Shown: positions 48,840 through 53,434 of the stretch, in pieces | How the letters are laid out: every line of letters starts with the position of its first letter | Numbering within the stretch: position 1 is the first letter of the stretch | NCBI RefSeq assembly: GCF_011777505.1 | Contig: NZ_JAATJT010000001.1 | Coordinates: 682,001-746,000 of the forward strand | Source of the DNA: Gaetbulibacter sp. S0825 | Lineage (GTDB): Bacteria; Bacteroidota; Bacteroidia; Flavobacteriales; Flavobacteriaceae | DNA length: 64,000 nt | Direction: 5' to 3' | Program-made: the position numbers and the translations under genes | Notes under the pieces: generated by a model | Databases searched by the model: none | What the model saw: only the letters and a program-made list of their open reading frames with translations | Told to the model about the DNA's origin: nothing

Positions 48840-50393
48840 TTAAAACTTGAAGCTTAAACCAGAATAAACACCTATAAAATATGGCTTAAAATTGCCAGAA
48901 GTATTTCTAAAAGTGTTTAATTGATATTTAAACATAGGTTCAAGATTTACATTAATATTGTTTGATACCTTATAGTTTAATCCTAACCCAAGGTTAGCAC
49001 TATAACTCAAATTATTAATATTTGTTGCCTTGCCAATTAAAGTACTAGTCCCATCTAAAGTGGAATATATGTCGTTTGTGTTTAAAAATAGGGCGCTAAA
49101 ACCTCCAATAGCATTAATTCCTAATTTGGTATTAGTGATGTTATATTGAATTTCTAGAGGGATTTCTAAAAAACCTAACTCCTGATTAATTGAAGCATTA
49201 TATTGATTTGAAAGCGGCTCAGGTACTTGTGCAAAACTCATTCCAGCAACAGTAATAAAAGCCAACTCGGTAGGAGTTTTATCTATCTCAATATTTTTAA
49301 CTGCAATAGGTTTAATAGGATTCATTTCCATATCACTAGCATTAAAAACATCATGTGTGTTGTAGCCTAGCTTTACATTGTTTACGCCAACCCTAACATT
49401 AATTTTATCGTTTATAGCATAACTTGCCGATACACCATAACTCATATTAATTTCTCCAGATTTTGCATTATTTACAAACTCTGAATCCATAGACGAACCA
49501 GTTCCTAACGAGTTAAAATAAACAGGAGCAATATTGGGTGCTACACTCCAACGTTTTGCGACTTCATCTTCATTTAATTCGTCTTCTGTCTCTTTTATTT
49601 TGTTTTCAGCAATAGCATCCTCAATAGATATTTTACCAGCTTCATTTATTTCTTTGTCGATTTTATTAACATCAGCCACTGTTGTTTCAGTAGATTTACC
49701 ATCAATCTTGTTTGATTTTTCACTCTCAATTTTATTAGTGCTTTGGTTTTTAACAACTGCTGAATTAATATCAGTTATTTTTGAAATATCATCTTTAACA
49801 GCATTCTTTTGAGAATCATCTACTTTAGTTTTATTCGAATTAGAAGAAGCAACTGTATTAGCAGTAGCTTCTTTTATCAATTCATCTTTAGTTATAGCAT
49901 TAAGCCTTTTGTTTTTTGAAGAGTTTGCGCCTTCATCATTCTTTGCAACTATAGACTCGTTTTTATTTATTAAAGTGTTTTTAGAATTCTTTTTATTACT
50001 ATTTAATGAATCTTTTGTGTCATTATCATTAAAATTTGATTCTTCTTGAGCTAACTTTTCGTTAGTATTATTGTTTTTGTTAAGATTATCAATGTTATTA
50101 GGGTCTAAAGTATTGGAATCGTTGTTTTTAGAATTTGTGTCAACAATAGTTTCGTCTATTTCAGGATTAGGATTGTTATCCTGAAAAAACAAATTATTTC
50201 CTAAAGTGAATAGCAAAAGCAAACCTGCAGCAATTGCTGAGATTTTCATCCATAAAGGAATTACTTTTCGTTGTTTTTGGTTATTTAGCAACTGTTCAGA
50301 AACGTTTTTCCAAACAGTATTACTAGGTGTTGCCTCAAAGTTTTTTAATCCTTCTTGGAAAAGCCTATCAATATGCTTTTTTTCATGCTTCAT
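48840..50393 (-). CDS. Dual-membrane anti-sigma-like protein with outer-membrane beta-barrel
   Basis: A 517-residue protein with four visible parts: a cytoplasmic anti-sigma-like segment (1-44; HIDRLFQEGLKNFEATPSN and VWKNVSEQL), one membrane helix (about 46-66), a long polar Asn/Lys/Ser/Asp/Glu-rich linker without predicted fold (71-280), and a C-terminal beta-barrel (281-517) ending in Phe, as needed for outer-membrane insertion. It has no cleavable signal peptide. Its start overlaps the ECF sigma gene stop by four bases, so it probably controls that sigma factor. The layout is like the dual membrane-spanning anti-sigma (Dma) proteins I recall from Bacteroides. Confidence 0.75.
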   Translation of the reverse strand: MKHEKKHIDRLFQEGLKNFEATPSNTVWKNVSEQLLNNQKQRKVIPLWMKISAIAAGLLLLFTLGNNLFFQDNNPNPEIDETIVDTNSKNNDSNTLDPNNIDNLNKNNNTNEKLAQEESNFNDNDTKDSLNSNKKNSKNTLINKNESIVAKNDEGANSSKNKRLNAITKDELIKEATANTVASSNSNKTKVDDSQKNAVKDDISKITDINSAVVKNQSTNKIESEKSNKIDGKSTETTVADVNKIDKEINEAGKISIEDAIAENKIKETEDELNEDEVAKRWSVAPNIAPVYFNSLGTGSSMDSEFVNNAKSGEINMSYGVSASYAINDKINVRVGVNNVKLGYNTHDVFNASDMEMNPIKPIAVKNIEIDKTPTELAFITVAGMSFAQVPEPLSNQYNASINQELGFLEIPLEIQYNITNTKLGINAIGGFSALFLNTNDIYSTLDGTSTLIGKATNINNLSYSANLGLGLNYKVSNNINVNLEPMFKYQLNTFRNTSGNFKPYFIGVYSGLSFKF

Positions 50394-50932
50394 AATGATT
50401 GCGAATTTAAATTCGCCATATAACTTTCTACTTTTTCTTTTAATATCTTTCTTGCTCTTGCAAGATTCGATTTGGTGGTGCCAGTTGTTATTTCTAACAT
50501 ATCACTAATCTCTTTGTGAGAATACCCGTCTAGCACATAAAGGTTAAACACCAATCTATATCTATCCGGAAGCTCTTGTATTGAGTTTAGTAAAAAATCA
50601 ATATCTACAGTTTCCGTTTCTACTTCAACTTCAACATCTTCAATTTGTCCCTCATTAACAATGTCAAAAACCCCTTGGGTTCTATAACGTTGTAAAGCAG
50701 TATTAATGGTAATTCGTTTTAACCAACCTTCTAATGATCCTTTTCCACTATACTGTGATATTTTTTTAAAAATTGTCATAAAGGCATCTTGCAGATTATC
50801 TTCAGCCTCTGCACGATTCCTAGAATACTTTAAACACAGTGCGAAAAGCTTGCTCGAATAGAGCTTATATAAGTCACTTTGCGCCTTTGTGTCATTGTTT
50901 CTGCACTTTTGTAAGAGTTGTTCTAAACTCAA
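50390..50932 (-). CDS. ECF RNA polymerase sigma factor
   Basis: A 180-residue sigma-70-family ECF factor. Region 2 includes AEDNLQDAFMTIFKKISQY and GSLEGWLKRITINTAL; region 4 includes ELPDRYRLVFNLYVLDGYSH and KEISDMLEITTGTTKSNLAR. The acidic linker between them (EDVEVEVETETVD) is unusual. The start is TTG 50932, preceded directly by an in-frame stop, so it is the earliest possible start. The next gene, overlapping by four bases, is its likely membrane-bound regulator. Target genes are not evident. Confidence 0.92.
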   Translation of the reverse strand: MSLEQLLQKCRNNDTKAQSDLYKLYSSKLFALCLKYSRNRAEAEDNLQDAFMTIFKKISQYSGKGSLEGWLKRITINTALQRYRTQGVFDIVNEGQIEDVEVEVETETVDIDFLLNSIQELPDRYRLVFNLYVLDGYSHKEISDMLEITTGTTKSNLARARKILKEKVESYMANLNSQSL

Positions 50933-51014
50933 TTATCACATGTATATTATTTAATTATAATACTAACTTCACATTGTAGATGAAGAATCTTTTAAAAGGT
51001 TGCGTCAATATTAT

Positions 51015-51038
51015 AAAAAATCCCGAAAAGACGGGATT
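51015..51038 (-). terminator. recA terminator
   Basis: AATCCCG and CGGGATT (51019-51025 and 51032-51038) pair over a six-base loop; on the minus strand a T run follows. It lies seven bases beyond the recA stop. Confidence 0.85.
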
Positions 51039-51044
51039 CAGGGG

Positions 51045-52049
51045 TTATTTATTTTCTGAAATTATCACTTTAATTTTTTCCTCAAGATCATCCATTAAGT
51101 CAGGATTATCTTTTAACATGTTTTTCACTGCATCTCTACCTTGACCAAGTTTTGAGTCTTGATAACTAAACCACGACCCACTTTTCTTTACAATTTCGTT
51201 TTCTACAGCTATATCCAATATTTCACCAACTTTAGATATTCCTTCACCGTACATAATATCAAACTCAGCAAGTCTAAATGGAGGAGCAACTTTGTTTTTT
51301 ACAACTTTTACACGTGTTTTATTACCCAAAACACCACCGTCACTATTTTTTATTTGGGTAGATCGTCTAATATCTAATCGTACAGAAGCGTAAAATTTAA
51401 GCGCATTTCCACCAGTTGTAGTTTCCGGATTACCAAACATAACACCAATCTTTTCTCTTAATTGATTAATAAAAATAACAGTACAATGTGTTTTACTAAT
51501 TGATGCGGTTAGTTTACGTAAAGCTTGCGACATTAAACGCGCGTGAAGCCCCATTTTTGAATCACCCATCTCGCCTTCAATTTCACTCTTTGGAGTTAAT
51601 GCAGCTACAGAATCTATCACAACAATATCAATAGCTCCAGAGCGAATTAAGTTATCGGCAATTTCAAGTGCTTGCTCACCATTATCAGGTTGAGAAATAA
51701 TTAAATTGTCAATATCAACACCTAGATTTTGTGCATAAAAACGATCAAAAGCATGTTCAGCATCAATAAAGGCAGCAATTCCTCCAGCCTTTTGTGCCTC
51801 AGCAATTGCGTGAAGTGTTAAAGTTGTTTTACCAGATGATTCTGGACCATATATTTCTATAACACGACCTCTTGGATACCCACCAACGCCTAAAGCGATA
51901 TCTAACCCTAGTGAACCAGATGAAATGGCATCAACATCCACTACAGCTTGATCGCTCATTTTCATAACAGTTCCTTTTCCGTAAGCCTTATCTAATTTAT
52001 CTAATGTAAGTTTTAATGCTTTTAATTTTGCTTCTTTTTCGTTGCTCAT
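51045..52049 (-). CDS. recA: Recombinase RecA
   Basis: A 334-residue RecA with Walker [11 protein letters not shown] (68-77), the L1/L2 region including [16 protein letters not shown], and [20 protein letters not shown] for Walker B and following segment. It forms filaments on single-stranded DNA for recombination and, where LexA exists, SOS induction. It has its own terminator; a nine-base dyad lies 26 bases upstream of the start. dprA, which loads RecA, is about 4.3 kb away on the other strand. Confidence 0.97.
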
Positions 52050-52074
52050 TGCTTCTAATTTTCGTTTCTAATGT

Positions 52075-52101
52075 ATGCTAAAATAATACATCTTTTAGCA
52101 T
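52075..52101 (-). promoter_or_regulatory. Dyad upstream of recA
   Basis: ATGCTAAAA and TTTTAGCAT are perfect nine-base inverted arms separated by nine bases, 26 bases before the recA ATG. A dimeric regulator such as an SOS or stress repressor could bind; an RNA hairpin in the recA leader is also possible. Confidence 0.55.
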
Positions 52102-52267
52102 CAAACAATTTTATAACGCAACCTTTTAAAAGTTTTTACATCTACTATATAGTACTGGGAAATTTTATGCTATGAAAAGCACTTAGAAGGTCTTTTTTGC
52201 AAAGAATTTTAAGTTAGATTTTATCTAGATTTTGATAAAAGGAATGAACCATTATTAAATTTTGAAG

Positions 52268-52299
52268 ACACTTTAAATTTAATTTTAAAGTGTTTTTTT
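52268..52299 (+). terminator. Orphan terminator-like hairpin
   Basis: ACACTTTAAA and TTTAAAGTGT pair over ten bases across a six-base loop and are followed by seven T, a textbook terminator on the plus strand. No plus-strand gene lies in the 200 bases before it, so it may end a small RNA or an antisense transcript from the recA leader region. Confidence 0.6.
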
Positions 52300-52318
52300 A
52301 TGCCTTACATTAAAATAG

Positions 52319-52326
52319 TACCTTTG
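52319..52326 (+). promoter_or_regulatory. -7 promoter element of trhO
   Basis: TACCTTTG, 34 bases before the ATG at 52361. No clear TTG at 17-23 bases upstream. Confidence 0.6.
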
Positions 52327-52360
52327 CAACAATATTCTTTAACCTTAAAATTAGTATAGC

Positions 52361-53434
52361 ATGCAACTGTACAATAAATTAAGCGGAAAAGAAAGAGCAG
52401 CATTAATCGAAAAAGCAGGAAAAGATCGATTAACGCTCTCTTTTTATCAATACGCAAAAATCACCAATCCTCAAGAATTTAGAGATCAATTATTTATTAT
52501 TTGGAATCAATTAGATGTTTTGGGACGTATTTATATCGCAACTGAAGGTATAAATGCACAACTTTCTCTTCCAGCTGATCGTTTCGATGAGTTCAAAAAA
52601 CATCTCGATAGTATTAATTTTTTAAAAGGTATTCGATTAAATATTGCCATAGAGCAAGACAATATGTCATTTTTAAAACTTAAAGTAAAAGTGAGACATA
52701 AAATTGTTGCAGATGGTTTAAATGACGACACGTTTGATGTTACCAACAAGGGGATTCATGTTGGAGCTGGCACTTTTAATGAATTAATCGAAGATGAAAA
52801 CACTGTGTTAGTGGATATGCGCAACCATTACGAAAGCGAAATAGGTCATTTTAAAAATGCAGTAACACCAGATGTAGATACATTTAGAGAATCTTTAGAT
52901 ATTATTGAAGAAGATTTAAAAGAACATAAAGAAGACAAAAACTTGGTCATGTATTGTACAGGAGGTATTAGATGTGAAAAGGCAAGTGCTTATTTTAAAC
53001 ATAAAGGATTTAAAAATGTATACCAACTAGAAGGAGGTATTATTGAATATACACGTCAAGTAAATGATAAAGGATTAGAAAATAAGTTTATTGGAAACAA
53101 TTTTGTTTTTGATGACCGTCGCGCAGAAAAAATTAGTGATGATGTTATTGCACAATGCCACCAATGCGGAAGTCCGTTTGACGTACATACTAACTGTGCC
53201 AATGATGCGTGTCATTTGTTATTTATTCAATGTGATGCCTGTAAAGAGGAAATGAACAACTGCTGTTCAACAAACTGCAAAGAGATACATGCACTACCTT
53301 ATGAAAAGCAAAAAACATTGCGTAAAGGGCAAGGTAATAGTAACGATATTTTCAAAAAAGGAAGAGCCGACTACTTGCCTTATAAAAAAGATTTAAGAAA
53401 CATTTTCGAAACTCTAAAAGTCGAAAAGAAATAA
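52361..53434 (+). CDS. trhO: tRNA uridine(34) hydroxylase TrhO (rhodanese domain)
   Basis: A 357-residue UPF0176/YceA protein. The N-terminal acylphosphatase-like domain (residues 20-115, RIYIATEGINAQLSL) precedes a rhodanese domain with the active-site C199 in MYCTGGIRCEKA, then a cysteine-rich C-terminal domain (CHQCGSPFDVHTNCANDAC). TrhO makes 5-hydroxyuridine at position 34 of tRNA with oxygen. The next gene encodes TrhP, which does the same reaction by an independent route in E. coli, so the pair is notable. Confidence 0.92.
   Translation: MQLYNKLSGKERAALIEKAGKDRLTLSFYQYAKITNPQEFRDQLFIIWNQLDVLGRIYIATEGINAQLSLPADRFDEFKKHLDSINFLKGIRLNIAIEQDNMSFLKLKVKVRHKIVADGLNDDTFDVTNKGIHVGAGTFNELIEDENTVLVDMRNHYESEIGHFKNAVTPDVDTFRESLDIIEEDLKEHKEDKNLVMYCTGGIRCEKASAYFKHKGFKNVYQLEGGIIEYTRQVNDKGLENKFIGNNFVFDDRRAEKISDDVIAQCHQCGSPFDVHTNCANDACHLLFIQCDACKEEMNNCCSTNCKEIHALPYEKQKTLRKGQGNSNDIFKKGRADYLPYKKDLRNIFETLKVEKK

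Follow-up and report, generated by a model that had tools for sequence, protein, structure and literature searches.

The DNA analysed here, referred to as the window, comprises 64,000 nucleotides (nt) of Gaetbulibacter sp. S0825 (contig NZ_JAATJT010000001.1, positions 682,001 to 746,000 of the forward strand) and carries a gene for an extracytoplasmic function (ECF) sigma factor that overlaps the gene of a 517-residue partner. By sequence, this pair is a flavobacterial branch of the dual membrane-spanning anti-sigma factor (Dma) family of Bacteroides. It probably constitutes a Das-Dma system, in which an anti-sigma factor reaching through both membranes would release its sigma factor to envelope genes preceded by a common promoter-like element. 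The reading builds on the computed architecture of the partner, its conservation, its homology to Dma proteins, its linkage to the sigma gene, the element itself, and the class of genes downstream of it. The Dma family is already known; new are the promoter-like element, the predicted regulon, and a candidate small RNA. The orthologous pair is placed in most of the sampled Flavobacteriaceae genera, and the element lets target genes be read off genomes.

The Gene Pair and Its Conservation

50390-50932, minus strand: ECF sigma factor gene (das-like), 180 residues, TTG start; the product groups with Bacteroides-like Das sigma factors
48840-50393, minus strand: Dma-like anti-sigma factor gene, 517 residues, ATG start, four-base overlap with the sigma gene

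Coordinates, lengths, strand, and the four-base overlap (ATGA) agree with an earlier note on this DNA, made from the sequence alone. The sigma protein matches the Pfam families Sigma70_r2 (E = 1.9e-14) and Sigma70_r4_2 (E = 3.9e-15), and among the 25 of 108 NCBIfam matches listed none above the cut-off was more specific than the sigma70-ECF superfamily. NCBIfam gave no useful match for the partner, for which Pfam returned a weak barrel match (PF13505, E = 1.8e-4, under the curated cut-off). Across the 78 aligned family members, that is, the window protein and 77 relatives with a full open reading frame (ORF), PF13505 was found in 62 and PF13568 in 45 at E 0.01. FecR and zf-HC2 were absent both from the Pfam matches of the partner (E up to 1) and from the families of the 78 members (E 0.01), and sequence comparison of the 78-member profile with the PDB yielded matches at chance level only (best E 0.25). 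The start codon of the sigma gene, read by script, is TTG in 47 and GTG in 31 members, with an in-frame ATG further upstream in 5 of the 78, whereas the partner starts with ATG in all 77 relatives; this arrangement perhaps keeps the sigma factor scarce.

The relatives stem from a public genome collection, in which 568 were confirmed and the best 80 kept; three of these (L039, L054, L105; loci and genomes are cited by the handles L and G) gave no full ORF under the script filter. The partner was matched at E 0.001 in 83 of 100 sampled Flavobacteriaceae genomes, the Gaetbulibacter genome included. Fourteen of the 17 genomes lacking a match have at most 2.2 Mb, the others 2.6, 3.1, and 4.8 Mb. 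In a sample of the phylum, 55 of 247 genomes match the profile, and outside the family the matches are mostly limited to the N-terminal and linker part. All of the 30 best loci of the 100-genome sample, including the window's own, have a sigma-sized ORF immediately before the partner gene, and 77 of 77 relatives have a sigma ORF directly upstream of it (within 5 bases), such that the pairing is not due to chance; in clustering by BLAST the upstream ORFs of the relatives fall together with the window sigma factor.

Architecture of the Partner Protein

50256-50393, minus strand: residues 1-46, conserved cytoplasmic anti-sigma-like segment with two short helices (model; 54% mean identity; homology to the Dma N-terminus)
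50187-50255, minus strand: residues 47-69, single predicted inner-membrane helix, positive side before the helix (model and hydropathy script)
49629-50177, minus strand: residues 73-255, disordered linker (model)
49596-49625, minus strand: residues 257-266, short conserved helix before the barrel (model)
48843-49550, minus strand: residues 282-517, eight-stranded OmpA-type barrel with a variable stretch at 352-399 (model, fold alignment)

An AlphaFold2 model, computed with the 78-sequence alignment, places two N-terminal helices at residues 6-15 and 25-36, a membrane helix at 47-69, a further short helix at 257-266, and the barrel at 282-516. The predicted local distance difference test score (pLDDT) mostly exceeds 90 in the barrel, except for approximately residues 351-400, and stays below 50 in the linker (73-255). 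In VIA-align the barrel superimposes on OprF, NspA, OmpA, and OmpW with Z of 16-18, in detail on OprF (PDB 4rlc; Z 17.5, root-mean-square deviation (rmsd) 2.3, 132 residues), NspA (1p4t; Z 18.0, rmsd 3.2, 151 residues), and OmpA (9fzc; Z 17.3, rmsd 3.0, 164 residues). The terminal Phe 517 is invariant in all 78 sequences, and the region of residues 47-69 is the sole stretch above the hydropathy threshold used; both the single inner-membrane helix and the barrel ending in Phe had been recognized in the earlier note.

Compared with the window protein, mean identity is 54% for residues 1-46, drops to 18% for 73-256, rises again to 53% for 257-267, and reaches 62-63% in the barrel (282-351 and 400-517), with 16% in the intervening stretch 352-399. 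The linker measures about 209 residues in the window and 161-261 (mean 209) across the 78 members; with its identity of 18%, it joins two conserved blocks and is free in sequence and always long. An extended polypeptide covers approximately 0.35 nm per residue, hence even 161 residues would exceed 50 nm when extended, longer than the periplasm, as the first reading of the sequence had supposed. Its estimate of some 210 disordered residues holds for the length of the linker only: about 183 residues are disordered, and the short conserved helix 257-266 precedes the barrel. This helix is perhaps a periplasmic docking or cleavage site.

A cleavable signal peptide, which would have spoken against the topology proposed early on, is unlikely by simple criteria applied with a script rather than a trained predictor. 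In the window protein the hydrophobic stretch starts at residue 44, and across the 78 members at 42-51; a single one of the 78 has an A-x-A motif after it, and the charge bias is of the positive-inside type, with a mean of 6.1 Lys and Arg in the 15 residues before the helix and 0.6 after it (4 and 0 in the window). Cys is absent from the first 120 residues in all 78.

Relationship to the Dma Proteins of Bacteroides

The accessible part of the report on this family (PMC13088901) lists as its features an anti-sigma domain, a membrane helix, a disordered tether, a C-terminal barrel, and an adjacent ECF21 sigma gene; it calls the role of the family poorly understood, the work having been done in Bacteroides thetaiotaomicron. 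In the same part, the sigma domain of Dma3 is located within the Dma3 protein itself, BT_1557 of the DUF4943 family sits in the dma2 operon, and das2 is induced in a dma2 deletion. Dma1 reportedly controls nigD1. For the known Dma family, hypervesiculation after deletion is also reported. The reference Dma-like sequences used here come not from B. thetaiotaomicron itself but from two genomes, G327 and G335, called Bacteroides-like because they contain NigD, which was found in these 2 of the 247 phylum genomes and in the control Bacteroides ihuae.

The profile of the window sigma factor gave 22 ECF matches in G327 and G335, the top five with 134.7-102.3 bits and the next with 67.4. Four of the top five adjoin a protein of 351-425 residues with a short N-terminus, a hydrophobic segment, a linker, and a barrel; L152 and L153 adjoin a NigD gene, at L155 the next gene belongs to DUF4943 (E = 8.7e-48), giving the order das2-dma2-DUF4943, and L154 resembles L155. 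In the fifth, L156, the sigma protein includes a membrane segment and the next gene is barrel-like (by eye), an arrangement read as Dma3-like. No Dma-like partner was seen beside the other 17 ECF sigma factors among the ORF starts in 1.5-kb flanks.

Comparison of N-terminal profiles of the flavobacterial and the Bacteroides-like Dma proteins in hhalign gave a probability of 96.7% (E = 4.2e-10), and comparison of the barrels 93.6%; the whole-length comparison aligned the barrel only, and the N-terminus was compared alone. When 413 stretches were searched with the N-terminal profile (hmmsearch), three matches emerged, all of them Dma-like (L153, L154, L155; E 7e-4 to 8e-5), and the Dma-like protein of L152 was not reached. 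In a maximum-likelihood tree of 36 sigma factors (the window, 13 of the 77 relatives, and the 22 Bacteroides-like ones; midpoint rooting), the flavobacterial and the five Das-like sigma factors split from the 17 other ECF sigma factors with support of 99/98; L156 forms a long branch, and the program warned of long branches meeting. On the basis of N-terminus, barrel, and sigma grouping, the pair is filed as a member of the Dma family by sequence, which turns the kinship suggested in the earlier note into one found by comparison, including a profile search against Dma-like proteins of the kind that it had proposed. A literature search for ECF21 together with Flavobacteri returned no match; the original Dma1 paper (PNAS 2024) may already report relatives from Flavobacteriia.

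As far as the accessible part of their description goes, Dma1-Das1 and Dma2-Das2 of B. thetaiotaomicron share with the flavobacterial pair the four-part architecture and the adjacent sigma gene, and N-terminus, barrel, and sigma factor are homologous to those of the Bacteroides-like loci taken as Dma1/Dma2 kin. On the other hand, the flavobacterial linker is longer (about 209 residues, in comparison to roughly 130 in the Bacteroides-like proteins by our own reading), the promoter element has diverged, and the neighborhood is that of recA and trpS. A different, apparently unrelated lipoprotein gene lies upstream of the sigma gene in 75 of 77 relatives, whereas NigD (L152, L153) or DUF4943 (L155; L154 by resemblance) genes accompany the Bacteroides-like loci. 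Dma3 resembles the pair in coupling an outer-membrane barrel to a related sigma domain, and the Dma3-like L156 falls into the group of the window sigma factor, albeit on a long branch; unlike Dma3, which, according to the part of the source available, harbors the sigma domain within the protein, the flavobacterial pair consists of two overlapping genes.

A Promoter-Like Element and the Predicted Regulon

The consensus element ACGCAACC-x-TT-N11-GCATCTA, also written as A-CGCAACC-x-TT, 11 bases, GCATCTA, lies before the sigma-dma genes in 77 of 78 loci and, where a small lipoprotein gene (gene 3, see below) heads the operon, before that gene. The core CAACC-N16-ATCT was sought up to 1000 bases before the sigma gene, and the sole locus lacking it, L098, is cut by a contig end (620 bases). 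Conservation extends beyond the core, with CG before it in 77 of 77, the two positions of TT in 76 and 77, GC before ATCT in 69 and 71, and the trailing A in 65 loci. The window copy is the following:

50977-51005, minus strand: predicted promoter through which the sigma-dma operon would regulate itself; sequence ACGCAACCTTT-N11-TCATCTA, located 44 nt upstream of the TTG start

The autoregulation predicted from this element would parallel the induction of das2 in the dma2 deletion. At the Bacteroides-like loci L154 and L155, the sigma genes are preceded by a variant of equal spacing, GCAGCA-N15-CGTCT. A relaxed pattern, applied to 27 loci (L119-L140 and L152-L156), matched in 11, namely L119-L127 (L120 being the window's own), L154, and L155, and was found neither at L128-L140 nor at the das1-like loci L152 and L153, nor at L156.

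Searching 60 genomes of the family for CGCAACC-N-TT-N12-CATCT returned 117 sites in 41 genomes, and the reversed pattern, used as a control, gave none in all 60. Of these sites, 55 fall within 4 kb of dma; the remaining 62 are spread over 32 genomes. The 10 genomes without Dma, most of them small, contain no site at all, and off-operon sites occur in 32 of 50 Dma-bearing genomes versus 0 of 10 (Fisher P = 1.7e-4). Classification covered 61 of the 62 off-operon sites, a SusC-SusD-type site of the Gaetbulibacter genome being left out. Envelope proteins follow 57 of the 61, and the element lies 14-54 nt before their start codons. They comprise 33 lipoproteins by rule and 6 by eye (L219, L234, L237, L244, L249, L263), 12 single-helix proteins of 28-38 residues (two recurring groups and three single ones), 4 DUF3575-like barrels (L174, L248, L253, L261; L174, the one tested, is under the Pfam cut-off), and 2 other secreted proteins (L252, L262), whereas 4 sites fit no class (L216, L236, L254, L266). 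Similar targets fall into nine recurring groups, which account for 38 of the 61. The predicted microprotein sites are given below.

L202, L204, L211, L222, L223, L227, L232, L240, L250, L255, L257, L260: single-helix microprotein sites, predicted

In 300 kb of the Gaetbulibacter genome, the same rule assigns 30 of 261 genes to lipoproteins (Fisher P = 6e-12 versus 33 of 61); these background genes have at least 100 codons, so this comparison is not valid for the single-helix microproteins. In many target lipoproteins the cysteine is followed by acidic residues, similar to the lipoprotein export signal (LES) of surface lipoproteins, K-(D/E)2 or Q-A-(D/E)2, as given in the available part of PMC5080379.

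In the Gaetbulibacter genome itself, the longer pattern with up to 3 mismatches gave 11 sites, as against 3 for the reversed one. Held credible are those at the sigma operon, in the recA-trhO gap, before a lipoprotein gene (C5:303140), before the gene of a DUF3575-like barrel (C3:380966), and, with 3 mismatches, at C3:770591, before a lipoprotein gene that by eye is like the recurrent targets. In two gaps read as SusC-SusD gaps, L177 (Gaetbulibacter genome, approximately 1501-1526) and L249, the element makes up most of an inverted repeat and may there be a hairpin, or two facing promoters, rather than a single promoter. Pfam found no family in the L177 protein and thereby did not confirm its SusD-like reading.

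Proposed Mechanism and Competing Explanations

In the proposed Das-Dma system, the N-terminal segment would hold the sigma factor at the inner membrane, where the single helix would anchor the partner; the disordered linker would span the periplasm, with the C-terminal barrel inserted in the outer membrane. A disturbance of the outer membrane, of protein assembly, or of the barrel itself would then lead to release of the sigma factor, either by proteolysis or by pulling on the tether or a change in conformation. Once freed, it would bind promoters of the type ACGCAACC-x-TT-N11-GCATCTA, including that of its own operon; further targets would be small lipoproteins (often LES-like), small outer-membrane barrels, single-helix microproteins, and a small RNA near recA. 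The likely role is an envelope response in which the partner would sense the outer membrane directly. In a wider reading, put forward tentatively and with slightly more doubt than confidence, this would be a sigmaE-like response common to the Flavobacteriaceae, in which one tethered protein would read the outer membrane and the regulon would comprise surface lipoproteins, single-helix microproteins of approximately 30 residues, small barrels, and a sigma-dependent small RNA or micropeptide beside recA, joining sensing, remodelling of the surface, and post-transcriptional regulation in a single circuit. If true, a large environmental family would possess a concrete, testable outer-membrane stress circuit, with microproteins and a small RNA also predicted as part of the regulon, and Dma sigma factors would commonly drive lipoproteins (NigD1 in Bacteroides, others in Flavobacteriaceae).

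Several observations weigh against the Das-Dma reading. AlphaFold confidence is moderate for the N-terminal segment (block means of 60-78 for residues 1-50), and a random coil of the linker's length would, by reasoning, be shorter than the periplasm, so that the linker would have to be partly stretched. Nine of the 50 Dma-bearing genomes have no exact match to the element, and in the Gaetbulibacter genome the pattern GCAACCNTT-N13-ATCT with at most 1 mismatch occurs at 23 sites, compared with 20 for its reverse, only 4 exact ones standing out. The lipoprotein background derives from a single genome, and the choice of start codons favors lipoproteins, in targets and background alike.

The strongest competitor holds that surface loops of the barrel bind a molecule from outside, for example a glycan, and that binding rather than damage frees the sigma factor. 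This is unlikely, although it retains appreciable weight: a glycan signal was proposed for Dma2 (PMC13088901, accessible part), and the barrel resembles small outer-membrane proteins. However, residues 352-399, situated between strands and probably outside, are the least conserved part of an otherwise well conserved barrel, the system is kept across a large family, and few targets appear related to polysaccharides by eye, namely two genes read as SusD-like (L177, L249), each behind a SusC-SusD gap, and, 153 nt behind the site of L266, a SusC-like frame. A conserved barrel with a poorly conserved 352-399 seems to fit a sensor of state better than a ligand receptor.

It is improbable that the partner is anchored in the inner membrane only, its barrel folding in the periplasm to report on outer-membrane protein folding or engaging the barrel assembly machinery (BAM) only under stress. 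RseA and RseB do work by periplasmic surveillance, and the insertion into two membranes is itself something we infer; however, the fold is of the eight-stranded OmpA type, the linker never falls below 161 residues, and the C-terminal GVYSGLSFKF fits the beta-signal pattern. Equally doubtful is the notion that ACGCAACC-N-GCATCTA is the site of another regulator, located by chance at the operon and at envelope genes. The position of the element within an inverted repeat in the two SusC-SusD gaps would suit such a site, and its link to the sigma factor is likewise inferred; on the other hand, the spacing of the two boxes is fixed, with the start codon 14-54 nt away at the 57 envelope targets, Dma-less genomes contain no site, and a variant of the same spacing precedes the sigma genes of L154 and L155. 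Finally, an ordinary exported barrel whose hydrophobic stretch is a cleaved signal peptide, with an incidental sigma linkage, would also show one N-terminal hydrophobic segment and an outer-membrane barrel, but is very improbable in view of the approximately 43 residues conserved before the helix, the rarity of A-x-A, the charge bias, the sigma gene upstream in 77 of 77, and the homology of the N-terminus to Dma.

Comparison with Other Envelope-Sensing Systems

The sigmaE-RseA/RseB system of Escherichia coli, with its small RNAs MicA and RybB, couples an inner-membrane anti-sigma factor to an envelope regulon. The likeness to the Das-Dma system, with an inner-membrane anti-sigma factor, an envelope regulon, and possibly a sigma-dependent small RNA, is one of outline: no RseA/RseB family is among the Pfam matches, the flavobacterial sensor itself appears to reach the outer membrane, and lipoproteins and microproteins, not assembly factors, make up its predicted targets. 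FecI-FecR signalling at the cell surface likewise places an ECF sigma factor under the control of an outer-membrane component on the far side of the periplasm, as would be the case here. There, however, a separate TonB-dependent receptor and FecR share this task, in contrast to the single polypeptide of the window, which has neither FecR nor TonB-receptor matches in Pfam.

Neighborhood of the Operon and Gene 3

On the sigma side the pair is flanked in the window by recA and, beyond it, by a rhodanese/UPF0176 gene (trhO), and on the partner side by plsC, coding for an acyltransferase, and trpS, coding for a tRNA synthetase of the W/Y type; the families of the neighbors are backed by Pfam, and the short names plsC, trpS, and trhO were assigned in this analysis. 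Counting the 77 relatives and the window, recA is present in 76, plsC in 71, trpS in 70, and trhO in 65 neighborhoods, contig ends accounting for part of the shortfall. The operon is separated from recA by the following feature:

51018-51039, minus strand: terminator-like hairpin after recA (terminator scan)

Gene 3, which encodes a small lipoprotein of approximately 140 residues, lies between recA and the sigma gene and heads the operon in 75 of 77 relatives. It is missing in the window (50933-51044), where the gap between recA and the sigma gene amounts to 112 bases, and a search of the Gaetbulibacter genome, carried out without a positive control, gave no match. Two further Cys residues are invariant across 33 aligned gene 3 proteins, and the model (mean pLDDT 88.3) consists mostly of strands; Foldseek found no PDB chain at E 0.001 or better. 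Homology to NigD was considered and is unsupported, the comparison having aligned only the end that carries the signal peptide (22%).

Elsewhere in the Gaetbulibacter genome (G000:C3:1098413-1098973), an open frame of 268 residues matches positions 12-209 of the Dma profile and has no barrel; it is perhaps an anti-sigma factor devoid of an outer-membrane part.

A Candidate Small RNA Between recA and trhO

52116-52144, plus strand: second copy of the predicted promoter in the recA-trhO gap, divergent, pointing away from recA
52150-52299, plus strand: candidate sigma-dependent small RNA; conserved leader, A+T-rich hairpin and then T7; no Rfam match

The core occurs on the same strand upstream of recA in 65 of 77 relatives, and together with the window 66 stretches were taken. 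A leader of the type GGGAAA...TGCTATGA follows in 57 of them. Three stretches (L040, L041, L044) lead to another gene instead of trhO, and L073 and, by neighborhood, L101 lead to a lipoprotein gene. Rfam gave nothing at the gathering score in 12 related loci, and window positions 50900-52500 matched only far below that score. The G+C-based terminator scan did not list the A+T-rich hairpin of 52150-52299; by a strict script, 36 of the 66 stretches contain a terminator-like hairpin, and the folding of 52150-52299 surpasses all 200 shuffles (z = -3.38). Of the 66 stretches, 20 contain an ORF of 30 codons whose product ends in NCKADGG or a similar sequence; variation in it is highest at third codon positions (0.353 vs 0.218 and 0.169). 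The window keeps the leader but has no such ORF.

The second promoter copy may drive a small RNA beside recA. A TACCTTTG box follows before trhO and fits TAnnTTTG, the primary-promoter consensus given in the available part of PMC9723704. The same part describes an ECF-type promoter class of Flavobacterium psychrophilum, SM6, which has a -10 box CGT and includes a sigma/anti-sigma pair as well as yceA, the rhodanese gene equated with trhO in this analysis.

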